Source of the DNA: a virus
Length of the DNA: 20,021 nt
Virus record (IMG/VR): IMGVR_UViG_3300031857_012508
Span: 1-20,021 of that record
Direction: 5' to 3' (one strand)
Shown: one piece after another, positions 1,752 to 17,622 of the stretch
Numbering within the stretch: position 1 is the stretch's first letter
How the letters are laid out: each line of letters starts with the position of its first letter
The notes under the pieces: model-generated
The model's database searches: none
Told to the model about the DNA's origin: nothing
What the model saw: only the letters and a program-made list of their open reading frames with translations
Program-made: the position numbers and the translations under genes

Positions 1752-1752
1752 C

Positions 1753-3504
1753 ATGGACATCAATGCAATCCTCAAAAGCATCACGGGTACAGCAGATGCT
1801 CGCACGAAAGCAATCGCAGACCAGGCTGCCAGCATGCAGGCAAGCACTGCAGCCCTGCGTGGCATGATGGAAGTCAATGTTCAGGAGGCACAAGCAGTTT
1901 CTGCCACGGCCGGCCAGCTTGCTGCAGAACGTGCGCAGACTGACTACCTGAAGAACAAGGCCATTCAGGAGGCGGCGACCATCTTTGGCATGAATGCGGA
2001 CGAGAACAACTTCATCGTCTCGCAGCGCATGGCAGAGTACGCAACTGCGGAAGACCAGCGCAAGGTTGCACGCGCAGAATTTGACAGCCTGACTGCCGTC
2101 AACCCGCTGCAAAGCCCTGTCAACTTCATTCTTGCCCAGCTGAAACTTCCGCAAGCTGCTGCTCGCAACAATGCACTGGTCGATGCTCGTGACGCTGCGG
2201 CTGCAGACATTGAAACACGCCAACGTTTGGCGGCTGCGCAGAAGCAAGTCACCACGGTGAACACCGCGGATCGTGTGAAGGCGACTGCCCTTGCAGAAGC
2301 TGAGAACACTCGGCGTGCTGCAGAGATTCAAGTCCGTCAAGCACAGATTGAGAACTCTTCCAAGCTGGCAGGCATGGACCTGCAGATGTTCACGCTGAAG
2401 GACAAAGCATTTGATGTGCAGGGCGATCTGTTCAACAAGACGCTGCAAGTTCAGCAATGGCAAATGTCGTATGAATCTATGCAAGCTCAACGGCAAGCTG
2501 CACTGATTGCTGCACAAGAACGTGCAGATCGTCTGAAGGCAGAAGCCAAGAACAAGGTTGAGCAAGATGCACAGATCATGGAACTGAACAATGGCTTTGC
2601 CACTGTGTCCAGGTTCCTTGGGTTGCAGACTCCCATGAACGTGGAAATTTGGAAGAAGCTTCCAGATGCCAAGGTCAAGCAGGCCTGGGTAGAGGCTGCA
2701 CAGACTGGCGTGCTGGGCTCTGATCTGTTGCAGAGTCTGAAGTTCGTCACGCAGGTTGGCAACACGGCTGCACTTGCACAGTCTAACCCTGGGACTGCAC
2801 TTGCAATTCGAGGCTTTACTGAGGCGCTCGGAACTGCTACGTCTGCGGCCGCTGGCAGAAAAGAGAACATTGGCAAGAAGACTGCGGAGTTGGCAAACAT
2901 TGCCACAGAAGACTATGTGAGACTCATCACCAGTTCTGCAAGTGATCCCAATGCCAAGCAGACTTTGACCTCTCCTCAGTTCGACACGCTGTTCAACCCG
3001 TACAAAGCCAATCACAAGGTGTTGATTACGGAGCCGGCGCTTGCAAACAACGCAGTCACAAAAGCGTTGCAAGCTGCAACTGTGGGCAAGCCTGCTACAG
3101 ATGCGCCGAATCTGCCTGCGGAAATGGAGCAGCAAGCACTGCAAAGCATCATCGCTCAAGTTCGTGCTCGCACGCTGGGTGTAGACGATGCAGCACGCCA
3201 GCTCAATGCGTATTATGGTACAGCAGCTCGCAAGAACTTTGAACTGTACCAATACAATCTGCTGGGCCTGCCTGCGCAGTCAAAATATGTGGCACGTATT
3301 GATGTGCCTGGTATGTTTGCAGAGCCAGTCACTGCGGATTTGATGAACTTTGCAAGCACGAAAGCGGCGCTGACAAAGGCTGCACGTAGTGGCGCAGGTA
3401 CGAAGAATCTGGAACTCACGCAAGGCCTTCCGATGGCAGGGCCATTCCTGCTGCCCAAGACTGCCTCAATCCTCCAGAACGTACTGCTCGGTAGGGAAGA
3501 GTAA
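1753..3504 (+). CDS. Coiled-coil internal virion (ejection) protein, 583 aa
   Basis: The product has 583 residues, starting at the ATG at 1753 one base after the upstream TGA, with an AAGGG at 1741-1745 as ribosome-binding site. It is rich in Ala, Gln and Lys and very low in Gly and Pro over its first half. Residues about 155-280 form a long predicted coiled coil (TRQRLAAAQKQ through RADRLKAEAKNKVEQ). The C-terminal half is globular, with segments such as FATVSRFLGL and TEDYVRLITS. No enzyme motif and no signal peptide is visible. In short-tailed phages, helical proteins of this kind are internal core or ejection proteins that leave the capsid with the DNA. The assignment here rests on composition and on its place between the Gly/Ala-rich protein and the giant protein, so it is inference. 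Tight spacing implies co-translation with both neighbours. Confidence 0.85.
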   Translation: MDINAILKSITGTADARTKAIADQAASMQASTAALRGMMEVNVQEAQAVSATAGQLAAERAQTDYLKNKAIQEAATIFGMNADENNFIVSQRMAEYATAEDQRKVARAEFDSLTAVNPLQSPVNFILAQLKLPQAAARNNALVDARDAAAADIETRQRLAAAQKQVTTVNTADRVKATALAEAENTRRAAEIQVRQAQIENSSKLAGMDLQMFTLKDKAFDVQGDLFNKTLQVQQWQMSYESMQAQRQAALIAAQERADRLKAEAKNKVEQDAQIMELNNGFATVSRFLGLQTPMNVEIWKKLPDAKVKQAWVEAAQTGVLGSDLLQSLKFVTQVGNTAALAQSNPGTALAIRGFTEALGTATSAAAGRKENIGKKTAELANIATEDYVRLITSSASDPNAKQTLTSPQFDTLFNPYKANHKVLITEPALANNAVTKALQAATVGKPATDAPNLPAEMEQQALQSIIAQVRARTLGVDDAARQLNAYYGTAARKNFELYQYNLLGLPAQSKYVARIDVPGMFAEPVTADLMNFASTKAALTKAARSGAGTKNLELTQGLPMAGPFLLPKTASILQNVLLGREE

Positions 3505-3521
3505 TTTTTTCTAGCTCACAA

Positions 3522-3541
3522 TTACCCGATGGGGTAAGGAG
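3522..3541 (+). promoter_or_regulatory. Hairpin abutting the Shine-Dalgarno of the giant virion protein gene
   Basis: A perfect 6-bp inverted repeat (TTACCC at 3522-3527, GGGTAA at 3532-3537, 4-base loop) overlaps the first bases of the strong SD sequence TAAGGAG (3535-3541), which lies 5 bases before the ATG at 3547. The hairpin could partly hide the ribosome-binding site and reduce or time translation of the 1701-aa protein. The geometry is visible; the regulatory role is inference. There is no U-run after the hairpin, so it is not a terminator. Confidence 0.4.
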
Positions 3542-3546
3542 ACGTC

Positions 3547-6500
3547 ATGCCTTTTGCTCAACAGCAATTTCATCCTGTATCTCTCGCGTCTGATACCACA
3601 GACTATCAAGCCAATACACTGACGCGCCTCACGCAAGCGGTGTCTCGTGGCTTGCCGGCCGCTGCTGCCAGTGGTGCAATAAGCATCTATAACAGTGTGC
3701 TTGCCAATCCCATTACTGGCCTCAAGGATATTGAGACTGAAAGTTTCCTCCGTAAATATGGTGGCAACGAGATGGGAGACTATTACAAGGACAGTCAGGA
3801 AGCCATTGACACTGTTGGTTTTATTGCCACGGCTCTCGTTCCTGGCAGCTTGGGCATCAAGGGCCTCAATGTTCTCCGCAGTGGCAATGCTGCCGGGAAC
3901 TTTGGTACATTTCTCAGGATGCCCAGCACCCGCAAGAATGAATATCTGAAAGCAGCACTTCAAGAAGTCGCCAAGGATGGCGGAGCAATCAAAGGCATTC
4001 TCTCGTCCACCAACCGCCGCAAACAACTCCAGTGGGAAATTGCAGATCAGACTCTGAATGGTGCAGCCTTTGAGCTGGCAGTAGCTGCGACCATGTTCGA
4101 TAGCCCTATCTTTGACAACTCCAGCTTGTCTGATTTCGGTTGGAACTTTGCTCTAGGTGCTGGCTTGTCTGGCGCGCTGGGAGGCCCCATTGGCTCCATC
4201 GCTGCCAAGGGCATTCTCAAAAACGCAGCCACAGAAGTTCAAGCACAGTTGCGCCTGGCTGACTTGGTTACTGATCCCAGCAAGCTGGGCTTGATGGGAG
4301 GCACAGAAGCTCTGCTCATGGCAGAAAGCATTGCAAAGCTGCCGACCAAGTTTGACAATCTGGAATTCACGTATCGTGAGAACGGCGTGAAGAAGAAGAT
4401 TGAACTGGAAACCGCAGGCGCAATATCTGCTGCCAAGGACTCTGCTGAACGCCTGGGAACGGAAAAGCTGAAGCTCAAGTTCAATGAGATTGCACAAGGC
4501 AATGAGCGTGTGGGTCAGGCGCTGTTTGAAGCGCTTCAGCGAAAGACGATTGCATCCAAAACCGCAGGGGATGCACCCACTGAAACCATTCAACAACTGA
4601 ATGGATACCTCAACATGCTGGCGCGTGTGCGCGCAGTTGATCCTGAGCAGCTGGCACTGGAGCAGCGCAAATTCTATCTCATCATTGATCCGCAAGGATT
4701 GCCCAAGGACAAGAGAAACATTTCCAATCTCTTCTCTCTGAAGCGTGAGAAGGGAACTTCTGGCAAGGAGATCACGAGCAAGCAGCCGTACTATCTCGCC
4801 GACGATGTCATGGCGGAGGATTTGCGGCTGGCCTCATTTGCTGATCTTGCAGAAGACAATCTTTTCAAGGCATTCCAAAATAACCCTGATCTTGATCTGA
4901 TTCAGATTGGTGACGGCTCGTACCGCGTCAATCCAAAGTCTCCCAGGATTCTCAAGTTCAGGGAAGACCCCAACACCACGAAGATGCTCATGGACTTGGA
5001 GAGTTTGCAGTTCTCTCCTGACACTGTGCTGGCATTTGGCGACATCATTCCCGCAGGCAAGCTGCTCACGGCGTCTGATGCAATCTACGCTGGCACGCGA
5101 GCATTCCGGCAAGGTGCAAGTGCTGCAGTCAATATCACTCTGGAACCTCTGCAATCCAGTGCTCGTTACGCATGGGCAGCAGGCCAGAACTTCACAGACT
5201 TGCGGCGCACTGTAGGCTCCACTGTCAACTTGTCTGATCTTCCTGTACTTGACCGCATTGTTGAGCTGCTGGACCAGGGACTCGTGAAGGAAGACACGCT
5301 TCGCACTCTCAAGTTCATTGATGGCGAACGCACTCTGAGCTTTGACGATATCGTCAACTTCCGTTCACTGCCTGAGCAGATGCGTATGGAAGTGCTGGAG
5401 ACTCAGCTGGCTAAGCTGGATGGTCAAGCTGTGCCGGATACCCGCTCACTTGCCATTCACATGAACAGTTCGCGTGAGTGGGTGGAACAAGCGATTGAAT
5501 CTGGTTTTCAGGTCAGCAAGAAAGAGGCGCCTCTGTTCCCCACGAAGCTGGCACTGCAACCACGCACTGTGCAGATGGAATGGGACTTCACGAATCTCAT
5601 CACGAACAAGAACGTGGTGCTTCCTGAAGAAGCCTACAACATGAACATGGGTCCGAATCATCTCTGGACGAAAGAGATGACCAAGGAGTATCAGCGGGAA
5701 ATCCGACTTAAGATCAATGTCACCGCATCCGATATAGCTGTTGGTCCAGACGCTGCTGCACTCATCCCACAGGAATCAGATTTCATCGGCTCCGGAAACA
5801 AGTTTGGAAACAAGCTGAGCATGTCTGCTACCGAGCAGGGCGCTGGTGCTACATTGTTTGGCTCCAGCAATGCAGGTTATGGAGAAGCTGCTCGTCTGTT
5901 CGTGCAAGAAATGGGCAAGAATGTGGCGCTGATTTCTCAGCGTTTCCGTGACGCTGTGATTGACACGCTGGCTCCCAACGTGAATGCGCTGCGGGCCAAT
6001 CCGCGTGCCAGTGCAGAACTTGGCGTACTGACTACTGCGCTTCGCAAGTCAGAGCATCGCTATGTGTTTGACGGTTCCAGCAATCGCATCATTTCTGAAG
6101 AAGCTTCTGCACTCGCATTGAGGCTGGAAGGCGATCTGGATGCTGCACTTTTGCAGCTGGAAGGCAAGAGCAAATCACCTCACAGTTTCACAATTACGTC
6201 CCCAGAAGTGGCAGACTTTTTGCGCACCAGCACGCGAATCAATGCCAAGCGGCAAGATAAGTTCACTACACTTTACAATGCCATGGGCCTTGTGAAGAAG
6301 CCTGTGGATGAGCGTGTGATCTACGTTCCTCCTATCAACACGGTCAAGTATCCATACCATGCCTTTGTCAAGACCAAGGAAAAGGTCGGTGTGGGTTCTA
6401 ACGTGGGCATGATTACTGCTCGCAGCGAAGAGCAGCTTCGTACACTGGCTGCACAAGTCAGCGACGATTATGATGTATTCTTCAAGCAGAACACAGACAA

Positions 6501-8652
6501 TTACTTTAAGGCCAAGGGAGAATACGAATACCAGAACACTCTGAACGAGGCCGCAGTCAGTAGTGATTTGGCCCGTCGCGGAGTTCTGGCAGACTTCTTC
6601 CCTGAGACTCGTCTTGAAAACGTCATGACGGATTGGCTTGAGTGGCATGCCAAGCAGGAAGAGAAGCTGGTACGCAATGCTGCGCAGGTGAAGAATCGTG
6701 AGTTCTTCTCAGAAATGAACTTTTTGTCTGAGCAATATCGCAAGGTGTCTGAGTCTGTCACGCGTGGCATTGGCTCTCAGTTCCGCGCAAAGGTGGCTGA
6801 TCCGTTTGGAGACTTCACCAAGACTGCGCTCAATATCTCCAAGCAACAAGAGTTTCCTCTACTGGATTCTCTCAATGACTTTATCGACAAGGTCAGCTTG
6901 GCGGCTGGTGATGGTATCCAACGGGGCTTCCGAGATGCAAAGAAGGGACTCATCTCCTGGGAAGACGCAAACAAAGTTACGGAACAGTATGGACTTGGCA
7001 GGCCATATACGAATGAAGCCACATATCTCACGGCAAACGAAAGAATGCCACTGAATGTGGTGCGTACGTTTCTTCAGAAGGCCAACATGGCCATCGCTAC
7101 AACCACGCTGCGACTTGACTTTCTCAACTCACTCATCAATATCATTTCTACCCCCATCATGCTGGGAACGGAAATGGCCAGCATTCGTCGTATGATTGCC
7201 ACGGATGATGTGGCGGCTGGCAAGCTCCGTGAACTCATGACTGTCAAGGTACCTGGTAAAGACTACAGTGTGCCATCTACCACGAAGTTGATTGGACAAT
7301 CTGTGGAGAACTTCTTCTCTACAGACAAGCAGCAGCTGCTCACACGGTACGAAAATATTGGAGCCATCAAGAAAGTCAGCCAGCTGTATCATGAAATGCT
7401 GGATGATCTGAGCTTCAATCCTACGATCAATCCCAGCGAGGCACTCAACAAGCTGGAGCGTGGTGTTGAGACTGCTGCGAAGATCACGGGCAATACGTTC
7501 TCAGAAGACTTCACACGCTTTGTGTCTGCCGACGTGATGCGGCAAATGTCTGATCCGCTGGTGCAAGCTGGCAAGATGACGGTTAAGGAGCAGAACGCAT
7601 ATATCTCCACCTTTGTGAATCGGGTGCAGGGAAACTATGTGACCAGTCAGCGGCCCATTGTCTTCCAAGGCACAGTGGGTGCAGCAGTCTCGTTGTTTCA
7701 AACGTATGCGTTCAACGTTCTCCAGCAGCTTCACCGCCATATGGAACGTGGAGACAAGCGCACGCTGGCTATATTTGCAGGCTTGCAGGGTACGATCTTT
7801 GGCTTGAATGGTCTGCCATTCTTTGACGCAGCCAACACGTACATCCTTGGCAAGTACATCGCAAGCAATCCTGAACATAAGGACATGTACAGTGTTCTTC
7901 CATCGTTTAACAAAGAGCTTGGAGACTGGATGCTGTACGGTACGGCGTCTGCTTTCCCGCTGTTCTCTGGATCAAGCCCTGCGCTGTTTACTCGTGGCGA
8001 CATCAATCCTCGTCATATTACTATACTGCCTACTAATATCGTTGATGTTCCAGCTGTCAGTGCTAGCATCAAGCTCGTAGGACAAATCTACGAGTTTGGC
8101 AAGAATGTGTCCAGCGGTGCAGACATGAGTGCTTCCATGCTTCGTGCACTGGAGCATCAAGGGTGGAACAGGCCATTGGCAGGTTTTGCTCAGGTGATGG
8201 CAGGCAGGACGACAACAAGTACGGGCTCACTCATCAGTGCTGCAAACGAGTTTGAGACTACAGCTATGCTGACTTCGCTGCAGGATAGACTCGTGGATTT
8301 CGGCGGAGTCACGAGAATGCTGGGCAGCCGGCCAATGGATGAAGCAGTTGCACTGACTGCGCTCTATCGCGAGAAGCGATATGAGGCAATGGACAAAGCG
8401 CGTATCGAGCGTCTTGGTGAAGTTGTCAAGAGCAAACTCTACGCTGGCGAAGTGCCTACGGATGAGGAATACGAAGAGTTTCTCACTCGTTATGCTCGTA
8501 GCGGTGGACGTGTGGAATCGTTCAATCAAGCGTACATGCGCTGGACAAGAGATGCCAGTGAGAGTGTGGTCAATCAGATGCTGGAAAAGCACAAGAACCC
8601 ATTCAGTATCAAGCTGTTTGAGATTATGGGTGGCGAGCCGTTGCCAGATTGA
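3547..8652 (+). CDS. Giant internal virion / DNA-ejection protein, 1701 aa
   Basis: This is the largest gene of the window, starting at the ATG at 3547 with SD TAAGGAG 5 bases upstream. Hydrophobic, Gly/Ala-rich segments lie near residues 90-110 (IATALVPGSLGIKG) and 197-222 (ALGAGLSGALGGPIG). The middle 900 residues are mixed globular sequence. The C-terminal third has further hydrophobic segments near 1181-1208 (TLRLDFLNSLINI), about 1375-1395 (VSLFQTYAFNVLQQLHRH) and 1405-1432 (AIFAGLQGTIFGLNGLPFF). The FQTY.FN..QQL and GLQ..IFG..G.P..D patterns recur, as I recall, in very large internal proteins of podoviruses. I see no lytic transglycosylase, protease, RNA polymerase or ADP-ribosyltransferase signature. 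Likely role: packed in the virion and ejected to form or line the channel across the host envelope. Family assignment is inference. It ends 29 bases before the terminator that closes the rightward operon. Confidence 0.88.
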   Translation: MPFAQQQFHPVSLASDTTDYQANTLTRLTQAVSRGLPAAAASGAISIYNSVLANPITGLKDIETESFLRKYGGNEMGDYYKDSQEAIDTVGFIATALVPGSLGIKGLNVLRSGNAAGNFGTFLRMPSTRKNEYLKAALQEVAKDGGAIKGILSSTNRRKQLQWEIADQTLNGAAFELAVAATMFDSPIFDNSSLSDFGWNFALGAGLSGALGGPIGSIAAKGILKNAATEVQAQLRLADLVTDPSKLGLMGGTEALLMAESIAKLPTKFDNLEFTYRENGVKKKIELETAGAISAAKDSAERLGTEKLKLKFNEIAQGNERVGQALFEALQRKTIASKTAGDAPTETIQQLNGYLNMLARVRAVDPEQLALEQRKFYLIIDPQGLPKDKRNISNLFSLKREKGTSGKEITSKQPYYLADDVMAEDLRLASFADLAEDNLFKAFQNNPDLDLIQIGDGSYRVNPKSPRILKFREDPNTTKMLMDLESLQFSPDTVLAFGDIIPAGKLLTASDAIYAGTRAFRQGASAAVNITLEPLQSSARYAWAAGQNFTDLRRTVGSTVNLSDLPVLDRIVELLDQGLVKEDTLRTLKFIDGERTLSFDDIVNFRSLPEQMRMEVLETQLAKLDGQAVPDTRSLAIHMNSSREWVEQAIESGFQVSKKEAPLFPTKLALQPRTVQMEWDFTNLITNKNVVLPEEAYNMNMGPNHLWTKEMTKEYQREIRLKINVTASDIAVGPDAAALIPQESDFIGSGNKFGNKLSMSATEQGAGATLFGSSNAGYGEAARLFVQEMGKNVALISQRFRDAVIDTLAPNVNALRANPRASAELGVLTTALRKSEHRYVFDGSSNRIISEEASALALRLEGDLDAALLQLEGKSKSPHSFTITSPEVADFLRTSTRINAKRQDKFTTLYNAMGLVKKPVDERVIYVPPINTVKYPYHAFVKTKEKVGVGSNVGMITARSEEQLRTLAAQVSDDYDVFFKQNTDNYFKAKGEYEYQNTLNEAAVSSDLARRGVLADFFPETRLENVMTDWLEWHAKQEEKLVRNAAQVKNREFFSEMNFLSEQYRKVSESVTRGIGSQFRAKVADPFGDFTKTALNISKQQEFPLLDSLNDFIDKVSLAAGDGIQRGFRDAKKGLISWEDANKVTEQYGLGRPYTNEATYLTANERMPLNVVRTFLQKANMAIATTTLRLDFLNSLINIISTPIMLGTEMASIRRMIATDDVAAGKLRELMTVKVPGKDYSVPSTTKLIGQSVENFFSTDKQQLLTRYENIGAIKKVSQLYHEMLDDLSFNPTINPSEALNKLERGVETAAKITGNTFSEDFTRFVSADVMRQMSDPLVQAGKMTVKEQNAYISTFVNRVQGNYVTSQRPIVFQGTVGAAVSLFQTYAFNVLQQLHRHMERGDKRTLAIFAGLQGTIFGLNGLPFFDAANTYILGKYIASNPEHKDMYSVLPSFNKELGDWMLYGTASAFPLFSGSSPALFTRGDINPRHITILPTNIVDVPAVSASIKLVGQIYEFGKNVSSGADMSASMLRALEHQGWNRPLAGFAQVMAGRTTTSTGSLISAANEFETTAMLTSLQDRLVDFGGVTRMLGSRPMDEAVALTALYREKRYEAMDKARIERLGEVVKSKLYAGEVPTDEEYEEFLTRYARSGGRVESFNQAYMRWTRDASESVVNQMLEKHKNPFSIKLFEIMGGEPLPD

Positions 8653-8722: not shown

Positions 8723-9373
8723 TCAATCCTTGAGAGGATCACCACGTTGAGCCGCGGGGGGAAGTGCCAGACGAATCTGAGCTTCCAACAGCCTGCGAAT
8801 CATGGGTTCAGGCTTCCAATAGTTGGGGCCCTTGAGCACCTTGCCGCGTTCATCGTAGATGGGCTTGCCATCTGGTCCCAGCTTGGAGAAGTTGGAGCTC
8901 ATGATGATGCCGAGAATGTCATTGCTGCGAAGGCCATACTTGCGCATTTCGCTGGCGCAGTAGACCATGATATCACCGAGCCAATCGGCAAGATCAGTGA
9001 GAATGTCTACAGGATCAGGCCTAACCCCCCGCAACTTGTCTACCAAGTCATCCACCTCTTTCATTTCTTCTTGCAGAATATCGTGGAATTTTCGCAGCAA
9101 GTTGACCATATCCTCAGGATGCGCTCCACGAAGCACAGGACGTTCTGGCGCTTCCAGGCCATACATCTTGTTAAAGTGTTCGATGGCCTGGTCCAGCTGA
9201 AACGTGTCAAACGGGCGTCTCTGTGTGTGCTCTGACTCTGGGTTTTCCAGGATCGTAGCTGTAGTGTCTGTTACGCCATCAATCGTGTATGCTCTTCCTG
9301 ACACGTGATCTGTCAGGTCAGGAATCTCCTTGCTGTGATTGATGGTAAGGCGGATGTGGGTTTGAAAAGTCAT
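8723..9373 (-). CDS. MazG/HisE-like nucleotide pyrophosphohydrolase
   Basis: The product has 216 residues. The domain begins near residue 60 and carries the acidic metal-binding pattern of the all-alpha NTP pyrophosphatase superfamily: E102-E103-x-x-E106 on one helix, then D127-x-x-D130 and D134 (DLADWLGDIMVY). After it comes a segment typical of phage members, IIMSSNFSKLGPDGKP through GKVLKGPNYWKP (about 153-190). Such enzymes hydrolyse nucleoside triphosphates to the monophosphate and pyrophosphate; in phages they may cleanse or remodel the nucleotide pool, or act on alarmones, but the substrate cannot be told here. The first 55 residues have no motif I recognise. It is the last gene of the leftward block. 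The ATG at 9373 has no clear SD and follows a G-poor leader. Annotation as phosphoribosyl-ATP pyrophosphohydrolase would be a family-level label only. Confidence 0.9.
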   Translation of the reverse strand: MTFQTHIRLTINHSKEIPDLTDHVSGRAYTIDGVTDTTATILENPESEHTQRRPFDTFQLDQAIEHFNKMYGLEAPERPVLRGAHPEDMVNLLRKFHDILQEEMKEVDDLVDKLRGVRPDPVDILTDLADWLGDIMVYCASEMRKYGLRSNDILGIIMSSNFSKLGPDGKPIYDERGKVLKGPNYWKPEPMIRRLLEAQIRLALPPAAQRGDPLKD

Positions 9374-9907: not shown

Positions 9908-10544
9908 GGTGGTTCTTCTCCTTTAGCTTGGCCTCGATGGCTTGGAAGATTTCGTAATCAGACTTGTTGGCCCTCACTAATGTTTCAAATAAGACAACAC
10001 GTTGCTCCTCGCTCAACCCTCGCCACTCGCGGCGGGGTGGGTGGGTGTAGAGGGGCTCCACCCAGCCTTTATGGTTTGGGTTGCGCTTGTCCCATTCATT
10101 ACGATAGTTCTCGTTGTCGTCGTAAGTGCGGTAGTCATATCCTCCCTCACCGTCAAATGTGCGCCACGCCACCGGCTCGGCCTTATCCGGCTGCTCCAGC
10201 GCGGCCAGCTTGCGGTCAAGCTCGGTGTTCTGCGCCTCCAGACTGGCGCAGTTAGGGCAGCGCGCCCCGTACTCGTACCAGTGCCGTCCGCAGATCACAC
10301 CGTAGGCAGTTGCAGGCTCTCCTTCACGGGTCGTTACGGGCCACTCGGCAGGGACGCCGGCGTATTGCGAAGGGCATCCGCATGACAAGGTGAACTTTGG
10401 CTTCTGCTCCAGCGTGGCGCGCAGATTGATCGCGGCCTGTCTTCCGGCTTGGGAAGCCAACGGCGGCGCCAGCGACTGCCATCCGTTCAGTTCTTCCAAC
10501 GCCTCCAGCGCCTGCTGGGCGGCGGCTTTCTTCAGGTCAGTCAT
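9900..10544 (-). CDS. Hypothetical phage protein with VAWR...WVEPLYTHP domain, 214 aa
   Basis: The product has 214 residues. The N-terminal half begins with an Ala/Leu-rich helix (KKAAAQQALEALEELNGW), then a Cys-containing part (SCGCPS, later CGRHWYEYGARCPNC near residues 86-99), which could bind a metal ion, then a coiled-coil stretch (LEAQNTELDRKLAALEQ). The segment EPVAWRTFDGEGGYDYRTYD through GWVEPLYTHPP (about 124-172) matches a short module (PVAW...LYTHP) that I know as widespread in phage hypothetical proteins, without known function. The ATG at 10544 follows AAGGAG and overlaps the helicase stop as ATGA. Its base composition is distinctly GC-rich (40 of 60 bases at 10201-10260, against 27 of 60 just upstream at 10621-10680). 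Confidence 0.8.
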   Translation of the reverse strand: MTDLKKAAAQQALEALEELNGWQSLAPPLASQAGRQAAINLRATLEQKPKFTLSCGCPSQYAGVPAEWPVTTREGEPATAYGVICGRHWYEYGARCPNCASLEAQNTELDRKLAALEQPDKAEPVAWRTFDGEGGYDYRTYDDNENYRNEWDKRNPNHKGWVEPLYTHPPRREWRGLSEEQRVVLFETLVRANKSDYEIFQAIEAKLKEKNHHD

Positions 10545-11812
10545 CTATCATTCTCCTTCAACAAAGAAAAGTCACAGTACACATGCTTATTGCTAAGCAT
10601 CTTACGAACAATCAAATATCCTTGTGCATTTCCTGTCTTGGTGCGAGACACATATTGTATCTTTCCACCTTGCACAAGACCTGCAAGAAGTTTGTTCAAA
10701 TCCTCTGGCTTGTCCAGATCGCTTTGCACTTGCTTCCACAATGCTGGCGTATCCATCGGACCCTTTGCATCACTCAGCACAGATATCAACCGCGCTGCGA
10801 CGTCTGCGTTCTTTGCCTTGCCAAACTCTCCCATTGCATTGGGCATGCGATGTTCCGTGTATGTCAGCAGCGTGTTTGCAAAGAGAACATCTTCGGCACG
10901 AATCTCAGTCCTGCGGTTTGCAGCAGCAGTCAGAAGACACAGTTTCAACAGATGCGTGTATCGTCTGGTGCTGTAATGCTTGAACCGTGCATCTTCCAGT
11001 CCTTCAAAGCTATGGTAGATTGTCTGCAACATGTCTCTAGCTTTGCTGGACATAGTTGCCTCGCCAGAGACTTGCGTCTTAATCTCCACAAACTCATCAA
11101 TGAGTTGCTGCTTCAGACTGTCTGGTGGCTTCTCTGGGAATGCAAACTTCTTGCCGCTGCTTTCACCAAAGACCAGAATCAGCCGTGACAGAAAGCCTTG
11201 ACCAAGTGTCTGCGGTGGGAATGCTTCTGCAAAACCTGCATGAGTATTGCCACTCAGAATGTTGATCGTTGGTTGAAAGATGGAAACAGATCGTGAAGTC
11301 TTCAGTCTCTGTTTGAAGGGGGCAACAGGATCATCCCAATCCCAAAGACTGCCAAGAAGACTAAGGAATTCAAGATTCCCTGAGCCAACGAATTCGTTGA
11401 ACTCATCTGCAACAACGAAAACTTCACGAGGATCAACGTTAGCATAGTCGTCTCCAAAGAGATTACGCATCACAGCACTGGCATCTTTGACAGAACCTGT
11501 GTCATCTTCCACACCTTCCAAGTCCAGCAGAAACTTCTCCTTGGATGTTCTCTCTGCTGAGAACTTGTCATAGCCAGAAGCACTCAGAATGCGCTTGCTT
11601 GTCTTGATGGCCGTTGACTTTCTCGTGCCTGGGTCACCAATCAGCATCACATACATGTTTGGAAAGATGCGAAAGTCTGCGAATGGTAGATAGAATTGCC
11701 GGCCGAGACTGGATGCCAGACAAGACATAAGACTCCAGCGGTGAAACACCATTGGAGGTTCTGTCTTCTCGGTGTATTTGAAGTACAGATCGGAGAGAGT
11801 TTGAACACTCAC
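10541..11812 (-). CDS. DUF3987-like P-loop ATPase, putative replicative helicase/primase-helicase
   Basis: With the start chosen here the product has 423 residues. A Walker A motif GDPGTRKS lies at residues 59-66 and a Walker B strand VFVVADE at 131-137, followed by NEF. Further conserved-looking parts are NILSGNTH, a probable sensor segment, and LSRLILVFGE, with a candidate arginine finger. Arrangement and sequence style fit the DUF3987 group of phage ATPases related to replicative helicases; helicase activity itself is inferred. The C-terminal 100 residues look like a small winged-helix region (LISVLSDAKGPMDTPALW). The longest open frame starts with a TTG at 11827, but a GTG at 11812 overlaps the polymerase stop (GTGA) and has GGGGAG 6 bases upstream, so I prefer the GTG. 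It is translationally coupled to DNA polymerase, supporting a replisome role. Confidence 0.83.
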   Translation of the reverse strand: MSVQTLSDLYFKYTEKTEPPMVFHRWSLMSCLASSLGRQFYLPFADFRIFPNMYVMLIGDPGTRKSTAIKTSKRILSASGYDKFSAERTSKEKFLLDLEGVEDDTGSVKDASAVMRNLFGDDYANVDPREVFVVADEFNEFVGSGNLEFLSLLGSLWDWDDPVAPFKQRLKTSRSVSIFQPTINILSGNTHAGFAEAFPPQTLGQGFLSRLILVFGESSGKKFAFPEKPPDSLKQQLIDEFVEIKTQVSGEATMSSKARDMLQTIYHSFEGLEDARFKHYSTRRYTHLLKLCLLTAAANRRTEIRAEDVLFANTLLTYTEHRMPNAMGEFGKAKNADVAARLISVLSDAKGPMDTPALWKQVQSDLDKPEDLNKLLAGLVQGGKIQYVSRTKTGNAQGYLIVRKMLSNKHVYCDFSLLKENDR

Positions 11813-14025
11813 TTCAAGTCTCCCCAATACTTCTCACCTGAGTTCATGTCTGGCGGGATGGTCATAGTTCTCACTACGCCATCCGTACCCTTGACTTGAA
11901 CACTCTCCTTCATTCGCTCTAATACAACACCAGGAGTGTCAGCCCCACGATAAGCAAAGAACAGGCTGTCATGAATCTGTGCCTTGAGCCTGACTTTGTC
12001 GCGTAAATCTCCATAAACAGAGTCATGCCAGATACGATAAAAAACACGGTTGATAATACCCACAGAAAAGTTTTGAGGTCCGTGTGCTACTGCCGCGTTG
12101 AGTGCTGGTTTGGATGCAGTTGGGTCAGCAAAGAAATGCCGAGTCCAACCAAGGGGACTGACCAATTTCTTGGTCAGCTTGATGGTACGCTTGACTTCAT
12201 CGTACCAATCTTTCTTCACTTCCGGATAGGTCTGCTCGTAGGTTTTCAGGAGGTGTGTGCAGACTTGCTGGAGCGTCCACTTCGCCGGAAGTTTAAGGAG
12301 ATTGCGGGCCTCTGCAACCGCCTTCGGACCCATAGTATCGAGGAGAACTGCTGCGCCCATGTTATAATTCGAGCCGTGGTTGACACGCTTGGAGAGATTT
12401 CTAAGCGGTTTACTGACTTCTTCGTAAGGGACTCCAAAGAACTTGTGAGCATTCCAGCTGTGATAATCTCTGTCTGACTCCACGAGAGTAATGAGACTCG
12501 TACATCCGGACATGTATCCGACGCATCGAGCTTCACTCTGAGCATAGTCCCCTTCTGCCAGTCCTTCCCAGTCGCTGTCAACCATAATCCACGACTTGAC
12601 TGCTTTACCTTGAGGGATATTTTGAATTTGCAGTCCGGTCCAGAAACTTGATTCAGTACTTGCAAGGCGACCTGTATCAGTTCCGGCAGGGTTTGTCTTG
12701 TAGTAGAGTCGACCATTCCAGAATTTCTCCCAGACGAAATAGGTGGACAGAAGTTTTGCCTGCTTGCGATATGCAAGAATGGCAGACACGATGAGTTCAT
12801 TGAATGGATGCACAGCCGCGCAAGCGTTCATGGCCTTTGCATCTGCGCTCTCCACTTCACCCATTCCCAGAACCTTGAGCAGTCTCTTGCACTGGTCAGG
12901 GCTTGCAGGATTGAAGCTAGGTCCAAACCATGCGTGAAGTTTCTCACGTTGCTTTTCTACTGCAACTTCGGCAGCTGCCTTGGCTTCGTCAAATTTTGCG
13001 CGATCCAGGCTCAAGCCATCTGCTTCCATGTGCAGACATGGGAAGACCAGTGGAAACTCCATCAGGTAATTGCGCAGTGCCCAATCAGGAACTTCCAGCA
13101 GAAGAGAGCACCAAGCGTTCATGGTTGCCCAACAGTCGCGGGCATTGTATTCAAACAGGCTGAACTCATCGCCGGCTGCATCATCTTTCCAGAAGCGAAT
13201 ACGGCGTACTGCGAATGCAGTAATGAAGTCTAGGCGCTTGGGCAGTTCTGAATACCAGGAATGGAACAGATGCTGCGTGTCGTAGAGCCAGTTGTGCACT
13301 GGCACATTGAAGCGCAGAAAATAGAGGTTGTCATACATTCCATTCTGGAATATCTTGGGCGGCGCTGAGGCATTCAGATTGCGTACAAACTGATGAGCCA
13401 GCATGTCCTTGAATGGAACAACTACAGAGTGAGTGCTGCCGTCGCTAAACAAGCCACAATAGCCAACGCAATGAATGCGTCGCAGGTCGTCGCCCACATA
13501 GGTTTCGATGTCAACTGCGAGTAGTCTGGCATGTGAGAATTTCTCCAGCAGTCTTGCACTTGATTCTGGCTTCCAGACTTCCCATGTGAATGCAGTCTGC
13601 GGGAACCAACTCTCCGGCTTGGTGAGTTTGCTGATGAACCGCTTGAAAACAAATGGGCCTTCGGCCGTCGTGACCAGATGTTGCAGCGGATTGAGAATGA
13701 GAACTTGCACATCTTTAGTTCCTCCCAGCGCATGAGCAGGAATGGTGAAGAAGGAGCCAGCGTAGTCATCCAGTGTGAGGCGCCGCTTGAGTCCACGCTT
13801 GTCAAGAGGATGACGAAAATCCAGCTGAGTACCAAGCAGCATGGGCAGCATGTCTGCATTCGTGCAGATGATGCCATCCAGATCATGCAGTTTGATCTTG
13901 GCTGCAAGGCCAGCAAGATACTCCTCCGTTGCTAGACTCACCTTGACGCTGTGAGCGCCGATCATTTCATTCAGTCTGGGAAGAAATGCACGATCCAAGG
14001 GAGTGCCAAAGAATGCAAGTTTCAT
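11809..14025 (-). CDS. Family A DNA polymerase with 3'-5' exonuclease domain
   Basis: The product has 738 residues from the ATG at 14025. Proofreading motifs are intact: Exo I D172-x-E174 (AVDIET), Exo II N228-x3-D232 (FQNGMYDN), Exo III Y293-x3-D297 (YNARD). Polymerase motifs are motif A DYAQSEAR (D493, steric-gate E498), motif B R542-x3-K546-x3-H550-x3-Y554, and motif C HDS with D686. Relative to E. coli Pol I, motif B has His where F762 stands, YN in place of YG, and motif C has Ser instead of the second acidic residue. The catalytic aspartates are kept, so it should be active. There is no 5' nuclease domain; the first 165 residues (MKLAFFGTPLDRAFLP...) are a domain I do not recognise. The enzyme replicates phage DNA. 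A TTG 45 bases further upstream is rejected because it lies in a terminator loop. No clear SD is visible before 14025. Confidence 0.95.
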   Translation of the reverse strand: MKLAFFGTPLDRAFLPRLNEMIGAHSVKVSLATEEYLAGLAAKIKLHDLDGIICTNADMLPMLLGTQLDFRHPLDKRGLKRRLTLDDYAGSFFTIPAHALGGTKDVQVLILNPLQHLVTTAEGPFVFKRFISKLTKPESWFPQTAFTWEVWKPESSARLLEKFSHARLLAVDIETYVGDDLRRIHCVGYCGLFSDGSTHSVVVPFKDMLAHQFVRNLNASAPPKIFQNGMYDNLYFLRFNVPVHNWLYDTQHLFHSWYSELPKRLDFITAFAVRRIRFWKDDAAGDEFSLFEYNARDCWATMNAWCSLLLEVPDWALRNYLMEFPLVFPCLHMEADGLSLDRAKFDEAKAAAEVAVEKQREKLHAWFGPSFNPASPDQCKRLLKVLGMGEVESADAKAMNACAAVHPFNELIVSAILAYRKQAKLLSTYFVWEKFWNGRLYYKTNPAGTDTGRLASTESSFWTGLQIQNIPQGKAVKSWIMVDSDWEGLAEGDYAQSEARCVGYMSGCTSLITLVESDRDYHSWNAHKFFGVPYEEVSKPLRNLSKRVNHGSNYNMGAAVLLDTMGPKAVAEARNLLKLPAKWTLQQVCTHLLKTYEQTYPEVKKDWYDEVKRTIKLTKKLVSPLGWTRHFFADPTASKPALNAAVAHGPQNFSVGIINRVFYRIWHDSVYGDLRDKVRLKAQIHDSLFFAYRGADTPGVVLERMKESVQVKGTDGVVRTMTIPPDMNSGEKYWGDLK
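11819..11824 (-). promoter_or_regulatory. Ribosome-binding site fixing a GTG start for the helicase-like gene
   Basis: GGGGAG on the - strand lies 6 bases before the GTG at 11812-11810. That GTG shares bases with the polymerase stop codon TGA (11811-11809). The SD is inside the last codons of the polymerase gene (Trp-Gly-Asp), so the helicase is probably translated by ribosomes finishing the polymerase. Confidence 0.65.
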
Positions 14026-14108: not shown

Positions 14109-14576
14109 TTACAGGACCACGACGTCACGCAGGGAGAAGTCAAAGCGGTCAGCTTCCTTCTTGTTCTGCTTGCGGACAAGCGATGCAGCCACCGTGACCT
14201 TGTCGATCTGCGCGATGGTTTCACCCATGTTCTGAGTGCCGAAGTGCTGAGCGAACGGCGCGCAGGCTTCCTTCAGGAATCCGATGCCGAACTCATTGAT
14301 GGTGCCATCCTTCTTGAACGGCGAGAAGATCTGCGAGAACTTCTGGCCGACGGCCGCTTGCTTCTCTTCTTCGGGGTTCTTCACCTCGTTCACAGCTTCC
14401 ACGGTGTAGCTGAACTTGATGTATTCATTGCCGCTGTTCTCAGAAGTCTCGCGCGAAGCAGAAACTTGCAAAGAGTAATGGCCCGTGGGAGGAACACCAA
14501 CAGGTGGCAGGTCTTCGATGTCATCCATCGAAGCGTTCATCAGGGCGTCGAGGTCAGAGAAAGTTGCTTTGGACAT
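14109..14576 (-). CDS. Putative single-stranded DNA-binding protein (155 aa, tentative)
   Basis: The product has 155 residues. An acidic N-terminal arm (FSDLDALMNASMDDIEDLPP) leads into a beta-rich region, GHYSLQVSASRETSENSGNE then YIKFSYTVEAVNE, and IDKVTVAASLVRKQNK near the C-terminus, ending RFDFSLRDVVVL. Strands of this kind with PPTGHY at the front look like an OB-fold or a DUF669-like phage protein. No residue proves DNA binding, so the function is inferred from fold impression and from position between recombinase, DUF3310 and polymerase genes, where phages often carry their SSB. It stands between an internal promoter upstream and a terminator downstream, suggesting a short, strongly made transcript; abundant synthesis would suit an SSB. 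No SD is visible; the 81-base leader is G-poor with CA repeats. Confidence 0.8.
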   Translation of the reverse strand: MSKATFSDLDALMNASMDDIEDLPPVGVPPTGHYSLQVSASRETSENSGNEYIKFSYTVEAVNEVKNPEEEKQAAVGQKFSQIFSPFKKDGTINEFGIGFLKEACAPFAQHFGTQNMGETIAQIDKVTVAASLVRKQNKKEADRFDFSLRDVVVL

Positions 14577-14657: not shown

Positions 14658-14945
14658 TTAGTCAGTGCCTCCGGGGTTTGCGGTTGAAAGAATGTGCTCA
14701 ATCACAGCGTCTGCCTCTTGATCGTTCTTGTGCAGTTCAATCAGCAGTTCGATGTAATGCTTGGCCTTCTCCAAATCGGCAATGCCGTTCTTGCCTTTCC
14801 AGCGTGTCACGTACTTGATGACGTTGCCTTCAAAGTAACCAATGTTGTTTGCGTGGATGAACTCAACAGGCTGGATAGCCAGCTCTTTGTAATGAGTTCC
14901 GCCGATTTGCTTTTCCAGCGCAGACTTGACAAAAGTTCCAGACAT
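14658..14945 (-). CDS. DUF3310 domain protein (phage nucleotide kinase-like annotation)
   Basis: The product has 95 residues. It contains the hallmark of DUF3310: QIGGTHYKELAIQP at 13-26, EFIHANNIGYFEGNVIKYV at 28-46, TRWKGKNG, then DLEKAKHYIELLIEL. Members are common in tailed phages and are often labelled nucleotide kinase, but I know of no firm biochemical proof and would keep the label DUF3310. The open frame extends upstream to a TTG at 15011, but that extension reads through a promoter. The ATG at 14945 with AAGGGA 6 bases upstream is the likely start. It opens the short unit running from the internal promoter to the terminator at 14054-14084. Confidence 0.92.
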   Translation of the reverse strand: MSGTFVKSALEKQIGGTHYKELAIQPVEFIHANNIGYFEGNVIKYVTRWKGKNGIADLEKAKHYIELLIELHKNDQEADAVIEHILSTANPGGTD

Positions 14946-14982: not shown

Positions 14983-15011
14983 AGTGTAGAACGTTTCCGC
15001 TCCGATGTCAA
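14983..15011 (-). promoter_or_regulatory. Sigma70-like promoter for DUF3310 and downstream genes
   Basis: On the - strand a perfect -35 box TTGACA (15011-15006) is spaced by exactly 17 bases from TACACT (14988-14983), which matches 4 of 6 positions of TATAAT including the key TA....T bases. The -35 box contains the stop codon of the Sak4-like gene. Initiation would fall near 14976, giving a leader of about 30 bases that includes the AAGGGA ribosome-binding site. Host RNA polymerase would read it. Confidence 0.7.
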
Positions 15012-15820
15012 CCCCTCTGAAAGAGAGAAAGCAGAGACAGTTCGCCGCCTTTCTTCTCATCCACATCCACAGCCAGCCGTGATCCGGTGATGATCGTGGG
15101 GCTATAGGTGCTGGAACTGTAAGCGCGATGTTGTTTGTTGACCACTGCACAATGCACTACGCTGTCGAAATACTTGGCGCTATTCAGCGAGAAGTTGCGC
15201 GTGCCCGCAACAGGAACAATCTTCTCACGACCTTCCAGACTTTCACTCTCCAGTTCATGACTGATGGCTACGACGTTAATATCCACCACTTGAATGAAGC
15301 TGAGCACTTGCTCCATCAGACTACCTTGCACAGCATAGTCTGTGAATGTCTTCTTGTATTCTTCGCCGCCAGGCTTCTGGAGTTCCTTGAGAATGCCCTT
15401 GTTCATGGCACTGTTGGCCAGCTGGCTCAGACTGTCAATGACGAGAATGTCATTGGCTCCAAACTTGGCAAGGTCAAGTTCAGAGTGCTTGGCTTCTGCA
15501 TCCTTTGCACAGATGGGGCAGTTGATCTTGCCATGTGAGGAACAGATCTTTTTCACACCACCACGAATCACTTCACGCACTGTGTCGATGGCAATGGGAT
15601 AGAGCCTGTGATCGGGGATGGAAATCACGTTCACATTCTTGCGGAACTTAGGATCAAGGATCGCAGGATTGAGTAGTGTTTTGATTCCGTTCTCAAGGTC
15701 CATCCAGTGAAGCGTGAAATGCTCCGCGAGTTTTCCCACAAGTGCAGTCTTGCCAGTCTTCGGCGCACCGTAGACAAGTACCTTTGCGCGTGTGGCAGAT
15801 GAGTAATCGTTCAGATTCAT
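15008..15820 (-). CDS. RecA-like P-loop ATPase, Sak4-type recombinase candidate (AAA_24)
   Basis: The product has 270 residues, about the size of a single RecA-fold domain. Walker A is GAPKTGKT (18-25) directly after the first strand (KVLVY), and Walker B is DILVIDSL with D129. The C-terminal part has HELESESLEGREKIVPVAGT and strands as in AAA_24 proteins. Phage proteins of this group include the Sak4 family of single-strand annealing recombinases; the assignment rests on fold and motifs. Between strands there is C93-x2-H96-x4-C101-x2-C104, a zinc-knuckle-like set not required by the fold. The ATG at 15820 follows AAAGG at short distance and lies 9 bases after the 174-aa gene's stop. With the nuclease two genes upstream and a possible SSB downstream it could form a recombination module repairing or concatenating phage DNA. 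Confidence 0.85.
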   Translation of the reverse strand: MNLNDYSSATRAKVLVYGAPKTGKTALVGKLAEHFTLHWMDLENGIKTLLNPAILDPKFRKNVNVISIPDHRLYPIAIDTVREVIRGGVKKICSSHGKINCPICAKDAEAKHSELDLAKFGANDILVIDSLSQLANSAMNKGILKELQKPGGEEYKKTFTDYAVQGSLMEQVLSFIQVVDINVVAISHELESESLEGREKIVPVAGTRNFSLNSAKYFDSVVHCAVVNKQHRAYSSSTYSPTIITGSRLAVDVDEKKGGELSLLSLFQRG

Positions 15821-15829
15821 GTGAGCCTT

Positions 15830-16354
15830 TCAGTGAGGAGTTGTGGAAGGGGGAGAAGTCATCAGGTGAAGCTGCCGCTGGAGAAGCGCAATGATGCGAT
15901 CCACATCTGCTTGCTCCACTTCGACAGTGATGATCGCGAAGAATCTGTAGATGGGACCAGAGAGAGTGTGCTCTGTTTCGCGCTTGTCCAGCTGGATGCG
16001 GAACATAGAACTTTCTCCTCTGCGCTGTTCTCCAAGATATTTCAAGTCCAGCTTCTCCATGATTGCACAGATTGCTTCTGCTGCTTGCTCGTTGGAAAGA
16101 GGAATCTTGGATGTCATCGTTGCAGCGTAGTTGATACCGCAAGGAATCATGGAATCCATGCCAATCATCGGCGCGGGGGAAACTCCAATGAACACTTCAT
16201 TCGCGGAGTCACCAAAGGTGATGGACGGCTGTCCAGGAAACGCAGCAAGATCAGCATCCAGCATCTTGTACTTATGCGGATTCACTTCACCTGAACGAAC
16301 TACCTTGGGCAGTTTGAACAGGCTCTTCACATCAAACTTGTCAGAATCGCTCAT
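15830..16354 (-). CDS. Hypothetical protein between nuclease and recombinase, 174 aa
   Basis: I do not recognise this 174-residue protein. The N-terminus is basic (KSLFKLPKVVRSGEVNPHKY), followed by a strand-rich middle (PSITFGDSANEVFIGVSPAP, MIPCGINYAAT). The C-terminal half looks like an alternating helix and strand domain (NEQAAEAICAIMEKLDLKYL, SSMFRIQLDKRE, IYRFFAIITVEVEQADVDRI), which resembles a ferredoxin-like alpha/beta layout, though that is only a guess. There is no catalytic motif. The ATG at 16354 has AAGGAG upstream and overlaps the nuclease gene by 14 bases, while the recombinase gene starts 9 bases after its stop, so the three genes are translated together. Position suggests a helper of the nuclease or ATPase. 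Confidence 0.8.
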   Translation of the reverse strand: MSDSDKFDVKSLFKLPKVVRSGEVNPHKYKMLDADLAAFPGQPSITFGDSANEVFIGVSPAPMIGMDSMIPCGINYAATMTSKIPLSNEQAAEAICAIMEKLDLKYLGEQRRGESSMFRIQLDKRETEHTLSGPIYRFFAIITVEVEQADVDRIIALLQRQLHLMTSPPSTTPH

Positions 16355-17363
16355 TCAGTCTCTCCTTCTGTCGCTGCGTGATTTCTGTCAGCGTGGTTGC
16401 AAAGTCAATGTGTTCGATTGCTTCGATATCTGCGAGACTTTGGATGCGGGGAAGCTCACCAAAGTTCTTGCCGAAGGCATGTGATGTTGAGAACTCACAA
16501 GTCTCGAAGAACTCACAACGCTTCATGAAGTTGAAGCATGATCTTCCACGCTTGGGGAAGAAGTTGAGTTCAGTGTAGTGCTCGATCTGCTGATGCAGAA
16601 GCAGTTGATCTTGAATCCACTCTGCTTTCTTGAGTGCGTTCTTCACAAACTCAAACTGCATCCACTCCTGACTGGAAGCACTGTAGACTGTGTAGAGCAC
16701 AGAGTATTCTGTACCGCCGAGCATGTCCACTACAACTGCGTAGCTCAGGGCTTGGTCTGAGTTGGCATACATGACGGGATCGACGCTGGTGAATCCAGTA
16801 GTCTTGTTCTCTTTGACCAGGAACCTGCCAGTCTCACGATGCTGAAGCACTTCGTCAATGTGGCCACTGTAGAAATGGCCATCCTCGAAGTCAATGGCCA
16901 TCGTGCCTTCGATCTTTACAGAGTCATACTCTGCAAGATTGGTCTCCGTCTGGTAGAATTCTTCGTAAGCGTACAGTGCCCAGATGGCTTCAAAGAAACT
17001 CTTACCTGCACTGCGTGTAGCCTTGCGTTCTTCCATGAAAAGATCAATGTCCCATGCAAGAAACGCTGCCCATGTTGCTTCGTTGATATCTCGTGTCTTG
17101 TCGTAAACGGCAACACCCGCACCAACTGCGTGGCCAAACGCGAAGGTGGGAGAATTCAAGCGATCTGCTGTGCCCGCTTCGGCTTGCAGTTTCTTGATCT
17201 GATATTTGCGCGGGCAGCTGTGAAAAATGTCAGCTGTAGAATACGTGATGAGGTTCTGGTGTGCAACCAGTGTGCTGTAGTTATCCTTGAGCACTTTGAC
17301 TGCGGCACCAAAACCTGGCGTAGCTTCTGTCACGCTTGTTGCGAGAATGTCATTCATGTTCAT
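16341..17363 (-). CDS. PD-(D/E)XK exonuclease, RecB/Cas4-like with 4Fe-4S cysteines
   Basis: With the start at 17363 the product has 340 residues. Motifs of the RecB nuclease family appear in order: H78 (FAFGHAVGAG), D170 in GHIDEV, E185-x-K187 in KENKTTG, and the QxxxY motif Q204-ALS-Y208. Cysteines C50 (SCPRKY), C276, C283 and C289 (CFNFMKRCEFFETC) match the split arrangement that holds an iron-sulfur cluster in AddB and Cas4-like enzymes. It probably resects DNA ends to give single strands for the RecA-like ATPase encoded just downstream. The frame is open to an ATG at 17444, but the ATG at 17363 has AGAGGAG 6 bases ahead and overlaps the previous gene by 14 bases, so it is preferred. Polarity and processivity cannot be read from the sequence. 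Confidence 0.92.
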   Translation of the reverse strand: MNMNDILATSVTEATPGFGAAVKVLKDNYSTLVAHQNLITYSTADIFHSCPRKYQIKKLQAEAGTADRLNSPTFAFGHAVGAGVAVYDKTRDINEATWAAFLAWDIDLFMEERKATRSAGKSFFEAIWALYAYEEFYQTETNLAEYDSVKIEGTMAIDFEDGHFYSGHIDEVLQHRETGRFLVKENKTTGFTSVDPVMYANSDQALSYAVVVDMLGGTEYSVLYTVYSASSQEWMQFEFVKNALKKAEWIQDQLLLHQQIEHYTELNFFPKRGRSCFNFMKRCEFFETCEFSTSHAFGKNFGELPRIQSLADIEAIEHIDFATTLTEITQRQKERLNERF

Positions 17364-17622
17364 GTTCTGCTCCTCTGCGCTCAAGTTCCTTATCAAAGTC
17401 ATCAAGCCATTGATAAATGGGTGTGCCGTAAACTGGAACATCATACCCGTCTATTTCGAACTCATCAAACGCCTCGTCTCCGAGATACACCATCTCGAGC
17501 CCAGTTAATTCCTTCGCTTTACGCTCAAGGAATGCCCGAGTGTTTCTGATGTGCGATGTTTCCATATCTTTGATAGCAATACGCTTGCCATCTTTGCACG
17601 TCCAAATGCGTAGCCTGCTCAT
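17350..17622 (-). CDS. Small phage protein of W..KDG..I.I.DM..SHI type, 90 aa
   Basis: The product has 90 residues. Its first half, RIWTCKDGKRIAIKDMETSH followed by IRNTRAFLERKA, fits a small family I know from phages and plasmids in which a W-T-x-DG strand pair precedes an I-x-x-M-x-x-xH-I helix; no function is known to me. The C-terminal half is acidic and aromatic (FDEFEIDGYDVPVYGTPIYQ, WLDDFDKELE) and ends RRGAEHEHE. The ATG at 17622 has AGGAG upstream and overlaps the preceding stop (ATGA). The last codons double as the ribosome-binding site and first codons of the nuclease gene, so expression of the two is linked. Confidence 0.8.
   Translation of the reverse strand: MSRLRIWTCKDGKRIAIKDMETSHIRNTRAFLERKAKELTGLEMVYLGDEAFDEFEIDGYDVPVYGTPIYQWLDDFDKELERRGAEHEHE

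Follow-up and report, generated by a model that had tools for sequence, protein, structure and literature searches.

An undescribed, fast-evolving protein family between the exonuclease and Sak4-like ATPase genes of an uncultured phage

The locus analyzed here raises the question of what is encoded by a 174-aa gene lying between a phage nuclease and a RecA-like ATPase, and whether its product belongs to this pair. In a preliminary description, the arrangement was regarded as an exonuclease plus recombinase pair with an extra component, and the 174-aa protein was proposed to be a new subunit, for example a loader or inhibitor. The window, i.e. the whole stretch of DNA that was analyzed, is a virus record of 20,021 bases (IMGVR_UViG_3300031857_012508), which had no near match among the 50,697 phage records with which it was compared.

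Gene order and proteins of the module

The features of the locus are listed in table 1. In the order of transcription on the minus strand, a 90-aa ORF is followed by the genes of the nuclease, the 174-aa protein, the ATPase and a DUF3310 protein, and then by those of an SSB candidate, a family A DNA polymerase and a primase-helicase. The three central ORFs lie where they had been placed before, with an overlap of 14 bp between the nuclease and 174-aa genes, and a gap of 9 bp between the 174-aa gene and the ATPase gene. All three starts have a plausible ribosome-binding site (AAGGAG for the 174-aa gene, GAAAGG for the ATPase), and the 174-aa gene is probably co-transcribed and translationally coupled with the module. 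The start of the nuclease (340 aa) was assigned to the ATG at 17363, which has GAGGAG as its ribosome-binding site and agrees with the starts of the homologues; the mechanical ORF extends to 17444. Rfam and tRNA scans found nothing in the window, and a promoter/terminator scan gave no enrichment over shuffles.

Table 1. Features of the recombination and replication locus, in order of transcription.
Feature	Coordinates	Strand	Basis or remark
90-aa ORF, no name	17350-17622	-	first of the minus-strand series
PD-(D/E)XK exonuclease with four invariant Cys	16341-17363	-	PF12705, phrog_1218, invariant residues in 13 homologues
174-aa protein from an undescribed family that is acidic and evolves fast; accessory gene of the nuclease-Sak4 slot	15830-16354	-	no family, PDB-sequence or fold match; dN/dS 0.19-0.39
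Sak4-like P-loop ATPase (AAA_24)	15008-15820	-	phrog_124, PF13479, alignment of 14 homologues
DUF3310 gene	14658-14942	-	PF11753 (E 2e-12)
SSB candidate, DUF669 / PHROG 378-like	14109-14576	-	sub-threshold; phrog_378 in relatives; homology to Tiera_030
Family A DNA polymerase	11809-14025	-	same orientation, downstream; PF00476 (E 1e-30), phrog_17 (E 5e-67)
DUF3987/PHROG 14296 primase-helicase	10541-11827	-	family matches

The nuclease matched PDDEXK_1 (PF12705) above the cut-off (E 5e-7), as well as the exonuclease family phrog_1218 (E 3e-10). In an alignment of 13 homologues, including those of named phages at 25–30% identity, the catalytic residues D170 and K187 were invariant, position 185 was E or D, and four cysteines, one N-terminal (C50) and three C-terminal (C276, C283, C289), were also invariant. 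The D...(E/D)xK residues constitute the PD-(D/E)XK active site, and cysteines spaced in this one-plus-three manner are known from the Fe-S nucleases Cas4 and AddB. These data suggest that the protein has exonuclease activity and may bind a 4Fe-4S cluster in a Cas4/AddB-type arrangement. The earlier label of Fe-S nuclease agrees with the profile match, the catalytic residues and the conserved cysteines, with the cluster itself as a prediction. A link to the Cas4-domain exonuclease of PA73 was rejected, the profile covering the active-site stretch only and the match not being significant.

The ATPase matched the Sak4-like family phrog_124 (E 3.9e-13, in two stretches) and PF13479 (E 3.9e-11). 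It contains a Walker A motif (GAPKTGKT) and a Walker B motif (ILVIDS), and residues G18, K21, G23-K24-T25 and D129-S130 were invariant among the 14 homologues aligned. By profile match and conserved Walker motifs, the protein is assigned to Sak4 (PHROG 124, core-only RecA-like). The proposed pair of exonuclease and recombinase was borne out, the recombinase being specifically Sak4-like. Residues 93-104, starting with C93, form the motif C-x2-H-G-x3-C-x2-C, which was invariant in all 14 Sak4 homologues and probably constitutes a zinc-binding insert, located between Walker A and Walker B. The Sak4 protein of phage HK620 was described as having no Sms-type N-terminal zinc finger, and given this description the insert may mark a subgroup of Sak4.

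The SSB candidate matched DUF669 under the cut-off (E 0.006–0.02), while the corresponding proteins of 6 of 10 relatives matched the SSB family phrog_378 (best E 9e-4). In close relatives whose sequence extends that far, the ATPase gene is followed within roughly 1 kb by a homologue of the SSB candidate. Up to 80% of sak4 genes are reported to adjoin an ssb (PMC5928155). Direct profile comparison with the SSB proteins of HK620 and PA73 gave no significant match. The preliminary description had counted the SSB candidate within the module at 15008–17363; an SSB-like gene is indeed present downstream, but it lies outside this interval, and the DUF3310 gene intervenes after the ATPase gene. The interval between the ATPase and SSB genes was observed to be a second variable slot, in which the DUF3310 gene is optional, being present, diverged or replaced among close relatives and absent or replaced in several relatives.

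The window also contains three long ORFs (455, 583 and 1701 aa) on the plus strand (384-8652), convergent to the replication genes. They had no confident PHROG match, the longest being searched over residues 1–1318.

The 174-aa family and its rate of evolution

For the 174-aa protein, nothing convincing was found in Pfam, PHROGs, PADLOC or the PDB sequences, whether the search was made with the single sequence, member by member or with profiles. Homologues were found neither in named phages or plasmids (tblastn) nor in a scan of bacterial genomes. Relatives in IMG/VR ranged from 85–87% identity for the nearest distinct ones to about 19–28% for remote ones, and P62, G65, F118 and Q161 were invariant in 11 sequences. 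The dN/dS values between close relatives were 0.19–0.39, indicating purifying selection. The ORF is considered a true gene because of these values and because homologues down to about 20% identity retain a conserved core. Every member of the family is acidic (pI 4.2–5.9).

Two AlphaFold2 models of the family (pLDDT 74 and 77; pTM 0.67 and 0.70) agree in predicting strands on either side of a middle helix, several of them before it, and a long helix at the C-terminus, the core being strand-strand-strand-helix-strand-strand. A fold search of the models against the PDB and BFVD gave no convincing match. Tail-terminator/neck-like, ferredoxin-like and START-like folds were rejected as weak (TM-score <=0.37, best E 1e-3) and inconsistent. 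Thus the earlier statement that the protein has no recognized family was confirmed for both sequence and fold, and no profile match to a known unrelated family emerged; the protein represents a real, undescribed family.

The predicted strand-rich core followed by a long helix, together with the position beside Sak4, would suit a further protein that binds nucleic acids, SSB- or annealase-like, with an unrecognized fold. Since nucleic-acid-binding folds such as OB or Rad52 were absent from the fold hits at any strength, all members are acidic, and another SSB candidate is already present at the locus, this explanation is highly improbable.

The 174-aa gene diverges far faster than its neighbours, its dN being roughly 3–16 times that of the flanking genes over several pairs of relatives. 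For L017 and L021, dN was 0.457 in the 174-aa gene versus 0.029, 0.038 and 0.031 in the nuclease, ATPase and SSB genes, and the protein identity was 45% versus 94–95%. Higher values in the 174-aa gene than in the two flanks were also found for the window and L012 (0.087 versus 0.021 and 0.015) and for L023 and L024 (0.638 versus 0.175 and 0.113). Between the window and L004 the value was 0.075 versus 0.023 in the nuclease gene; the ATPase gene was nearly unchanged (0.002), and a ratio to it is not meaningful.

In L017 and L021, the nucleotide identity fell from about 82–95% in the nuclease gene to 50–67% across the 174-aa gene, and recovered in the ATPase gene. Synonymous codons at conserved residues were identical in 46% of cases in the 174-aa gene versus 72–78% elsewhere (p=5e-7). 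This pattern is consistent with the exchange of a diverged 174-aa allele in this one pair. In the comparison of the window with L012, synonymous change in the 174-aa gene equalled that in the flanks (p=0.67) and amino-acid change was higher (p=1.5e-6), which shows that rapid change is also a property of the protein. Fast divergence was likewise seen in other small genes of these phages (36–40% identity), so that this rate is not unique to the 174-aa gene.

Slot content and possible roles of the 174-aa protein

Loci with this ATPase were surveyed, and 54 records had both the nuclease and the ATPase in sequence. The slot between the two contained a member of the 174-aa family in 25 of these, among them the most divergent members (L056-L058), which matched the profile weakly (E ~0.001–0.01) and were counted partly on position. 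In two of the 25 the family member was followed by a PHROG 13551-like gene. The slot was empty in 10 records (the two genes overlapping or lying less than 170 bp apart), and in 19 it held other genes without the family. Four of these 19 had a PHROG 13551-like gene (one of them, L063, with an unrelated ORF in addition), and the other 15 had a MazG-like gene (phrog_671), a DnaQ-like exonuclease, DUF6378, a DHH protein or unknowns. While the contents of the slot vary, the gene order and the flanks are conserved.

The larger slot proteins of L063-L065 could not be shown to be family members (hhalign scores of about 20 or less versus 120–330 for known members). The PHROG 13551-like protein recurs in the slot (L025, L026, L028, L032, L057 and L063), sometimes behind a member of the 174-aa family.

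The 174-aa gene does not always accompany the pair, which occurs without it in 29 of the 54 records, and both partners are kept where the slot is empty (L027, L029, L061, L062). In L061, L067 and L068 (37–45 kb), in which the slot is empty or differently filled, the family was found nowhere in the whole records. The 174-aa protein is therefore not an obligate subunit. In addition, its divergence, far above that of both partners, is the opposite of what a conserved interface would predict, and the proposal of a new subunit is thus not supported and has been weakened.

The 174-aa protein might still act, as proposed, by binding the nuclease or Sak4 of the phage itself, as a regulator or loader restricted to its lineage. 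All homologues found in the data searched lie between the two partners and none outside the slot, the gene spacing in the window suggests coupling, and the 174-aa gene is never absent in an inner clade of 13 rows in the Sak4 tree, all of which would suit such a protein. Nevertheless, the pair is common without the gene, relatives with an empty slot retain both partners, and the protein is only 45% identical where the partners are 94–95% identical. A protein that specifically loads or inhibits the phage enzymes themselves is accordingly less likely, and we consider this explanation rather unlikely. On a Sak4 tree, the family-only label required 4 changes versus 14 in shuffles, and the family is therefore clade-bound, with gains or losses.

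Judging from family membership, the nuclease would resect DNA ends, the SSB-like protein would coat the single strand and Sak4 would anneal it, and the interval would serve a tailed phage as a recombination module linked to replication. The 174-aa gene would be lineage-specific accessory cargo in a slot whose content differs between phages, some having no gene there and others unrelated ones. That the gene is missing from many intact pairs, and evolves fast although under purifying selection, suggests that the product is a soluble acidic protein contacting a fast-changing partner. The most likely partner would be a host recombination/end-processing or defence protein, contacted in a Gam- or Abc2-like manner, since contact with the conserved nuclease or Sak4 should slow the change of a protein. 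The reading that we tentatively prefer, at somewhat less than even odds, is accessory cargo, its leading form being a host-directed role; we infer both the partner and the direction of the effect.

Phage recombination operons often carry Gam- or Abc1/2-type genes (PMC5928155), and such accessory genes (lambda Gam, P22 Abc1/Abc2) act on host RecBCD (PMC5928155). The likeness to the 174-aa protein is one of analogy, as no sequence or fold similarity to known Gam/Abc-type modulators was found in Pfam, PHROGs, PADLOC, the PDB or BFVD. Against a host-directed role, neither fold nor family searches linked the protein to an inhibitor of host factors, and the recognizable slot occupants elsewhere resemble proteins of nucleotide or nucleic-acid metabolism, not of counter-defence. 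Against the cargo reading, the constant presence of the gene in the inner clade indicates that it may matter to the pair there. An accessory role may include that of an inhibitor or modulator of host factors.

The nature of the other occupants (MazG-like, DnaQ-like, DUF6378, DHH) would also agree with ordinary cargo unrelated to recombination, for example in nucleotide metabolism or DNA modification, placed here by phage mosaicism. The variability of the ATPase-SSB interval and the differing position of the MazG gene in Tiera and in the window point in the same direction, but the 174-aa protein has no enzymatic motif or known catalytic fold, and its family never occurs outside the slot in the data searched; such an origin appears improbable. 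A MazG-like pyrophosphohydrolase gene (phrog_671) is present in the window at 8723-9373 on the minus strand, the same PHROG occupies the nuclease-Sak4 slot of Tiera, and MazG-resembling proteins occupy that of L084-L086; because of these positions, the gene seems to have moved in related phages.

In a broader reading, the family might found a new class of phage proteins modulating end resection or strand annealing, diversifying quickly because its target does. Its members would either bind the nuclease/Sak4 pair or disarm a target outside it, namely a host nuclease or a defence system sensing phage recombination. We regard this broader proposal as possible but doubtful. If the family does counter host recombination or defence, a new type of factor directed against the host would be recognizable by position alone. 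The nuclease-Sak4 slot offers a defined place to seek fast-evolving phage accessory proteins, possibly directed against host recombination or defence.

Relation to known phage modules

Phage modules that combine exonuclease, Sak4 and SSB are of a known kind, and what is new here is one undescribed, optional family. The module represents a new uncultured lineage among these systems. Pseudomonas phage 73 and Burkholderia phage KL1 had earlier been noted to have an exonuclease together with Sak4 (PMC3483164). These phages share a Cas4-type exonuclease, Sak4 and SSB clustered with the polymerase and MazG, but they differ in having the reverse gene order, the SSB as the in-between gene, and a nuclease that is not detectably similar by profile.

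HK620 (hkaL, hkaK, abc2; PMC5928155) shares the Sak4-like ATPase, a neighbouring DUF669-type SSB and variable small operon genes, the last with no known relationship to the 174-aa family. Its Sak4 anneals single strands, and annealing is stimulated by the SSB (PMC5928155). Unlike the present module, that of HK620 has Abc2, a RecBCD hijacker, in place of its own PD-(D/E)XK nuclease. As a precedent for the host-directed reading, RecBCD hijackers are carried by the modules of both HK620 and P22, and the 'abc1' position of HK620 is occupied by a protein unrelated to P22 Abc1 (PMC5928155).

PaP2/PaMx41 (Fredfastierviridae), Polaromonas phage Tiera, EBPR podovirus 3 and Aeromonas phage P5 have a homologous nuclease (27–29% identity) and Sak4 (34–37%) in the same order, and all except P5 were also found to share the polymerase and an SSB-like gene downstream. 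They differ in having no member of the 174-aa family, the slot being filled by unrelated genes; homology of the 174-aa protein to the slot proteins of PaP2, Tiera, EBPR podovirus 3 and P5 was considered and rejected. In EBPR podovirus 3 (L007 7008-7649; JF412296, ~29081-29648), the Sak4-like gene has no annotation other than a misc_feature, and the match extends over half of its length, so that it looks broken or mis-assembled.
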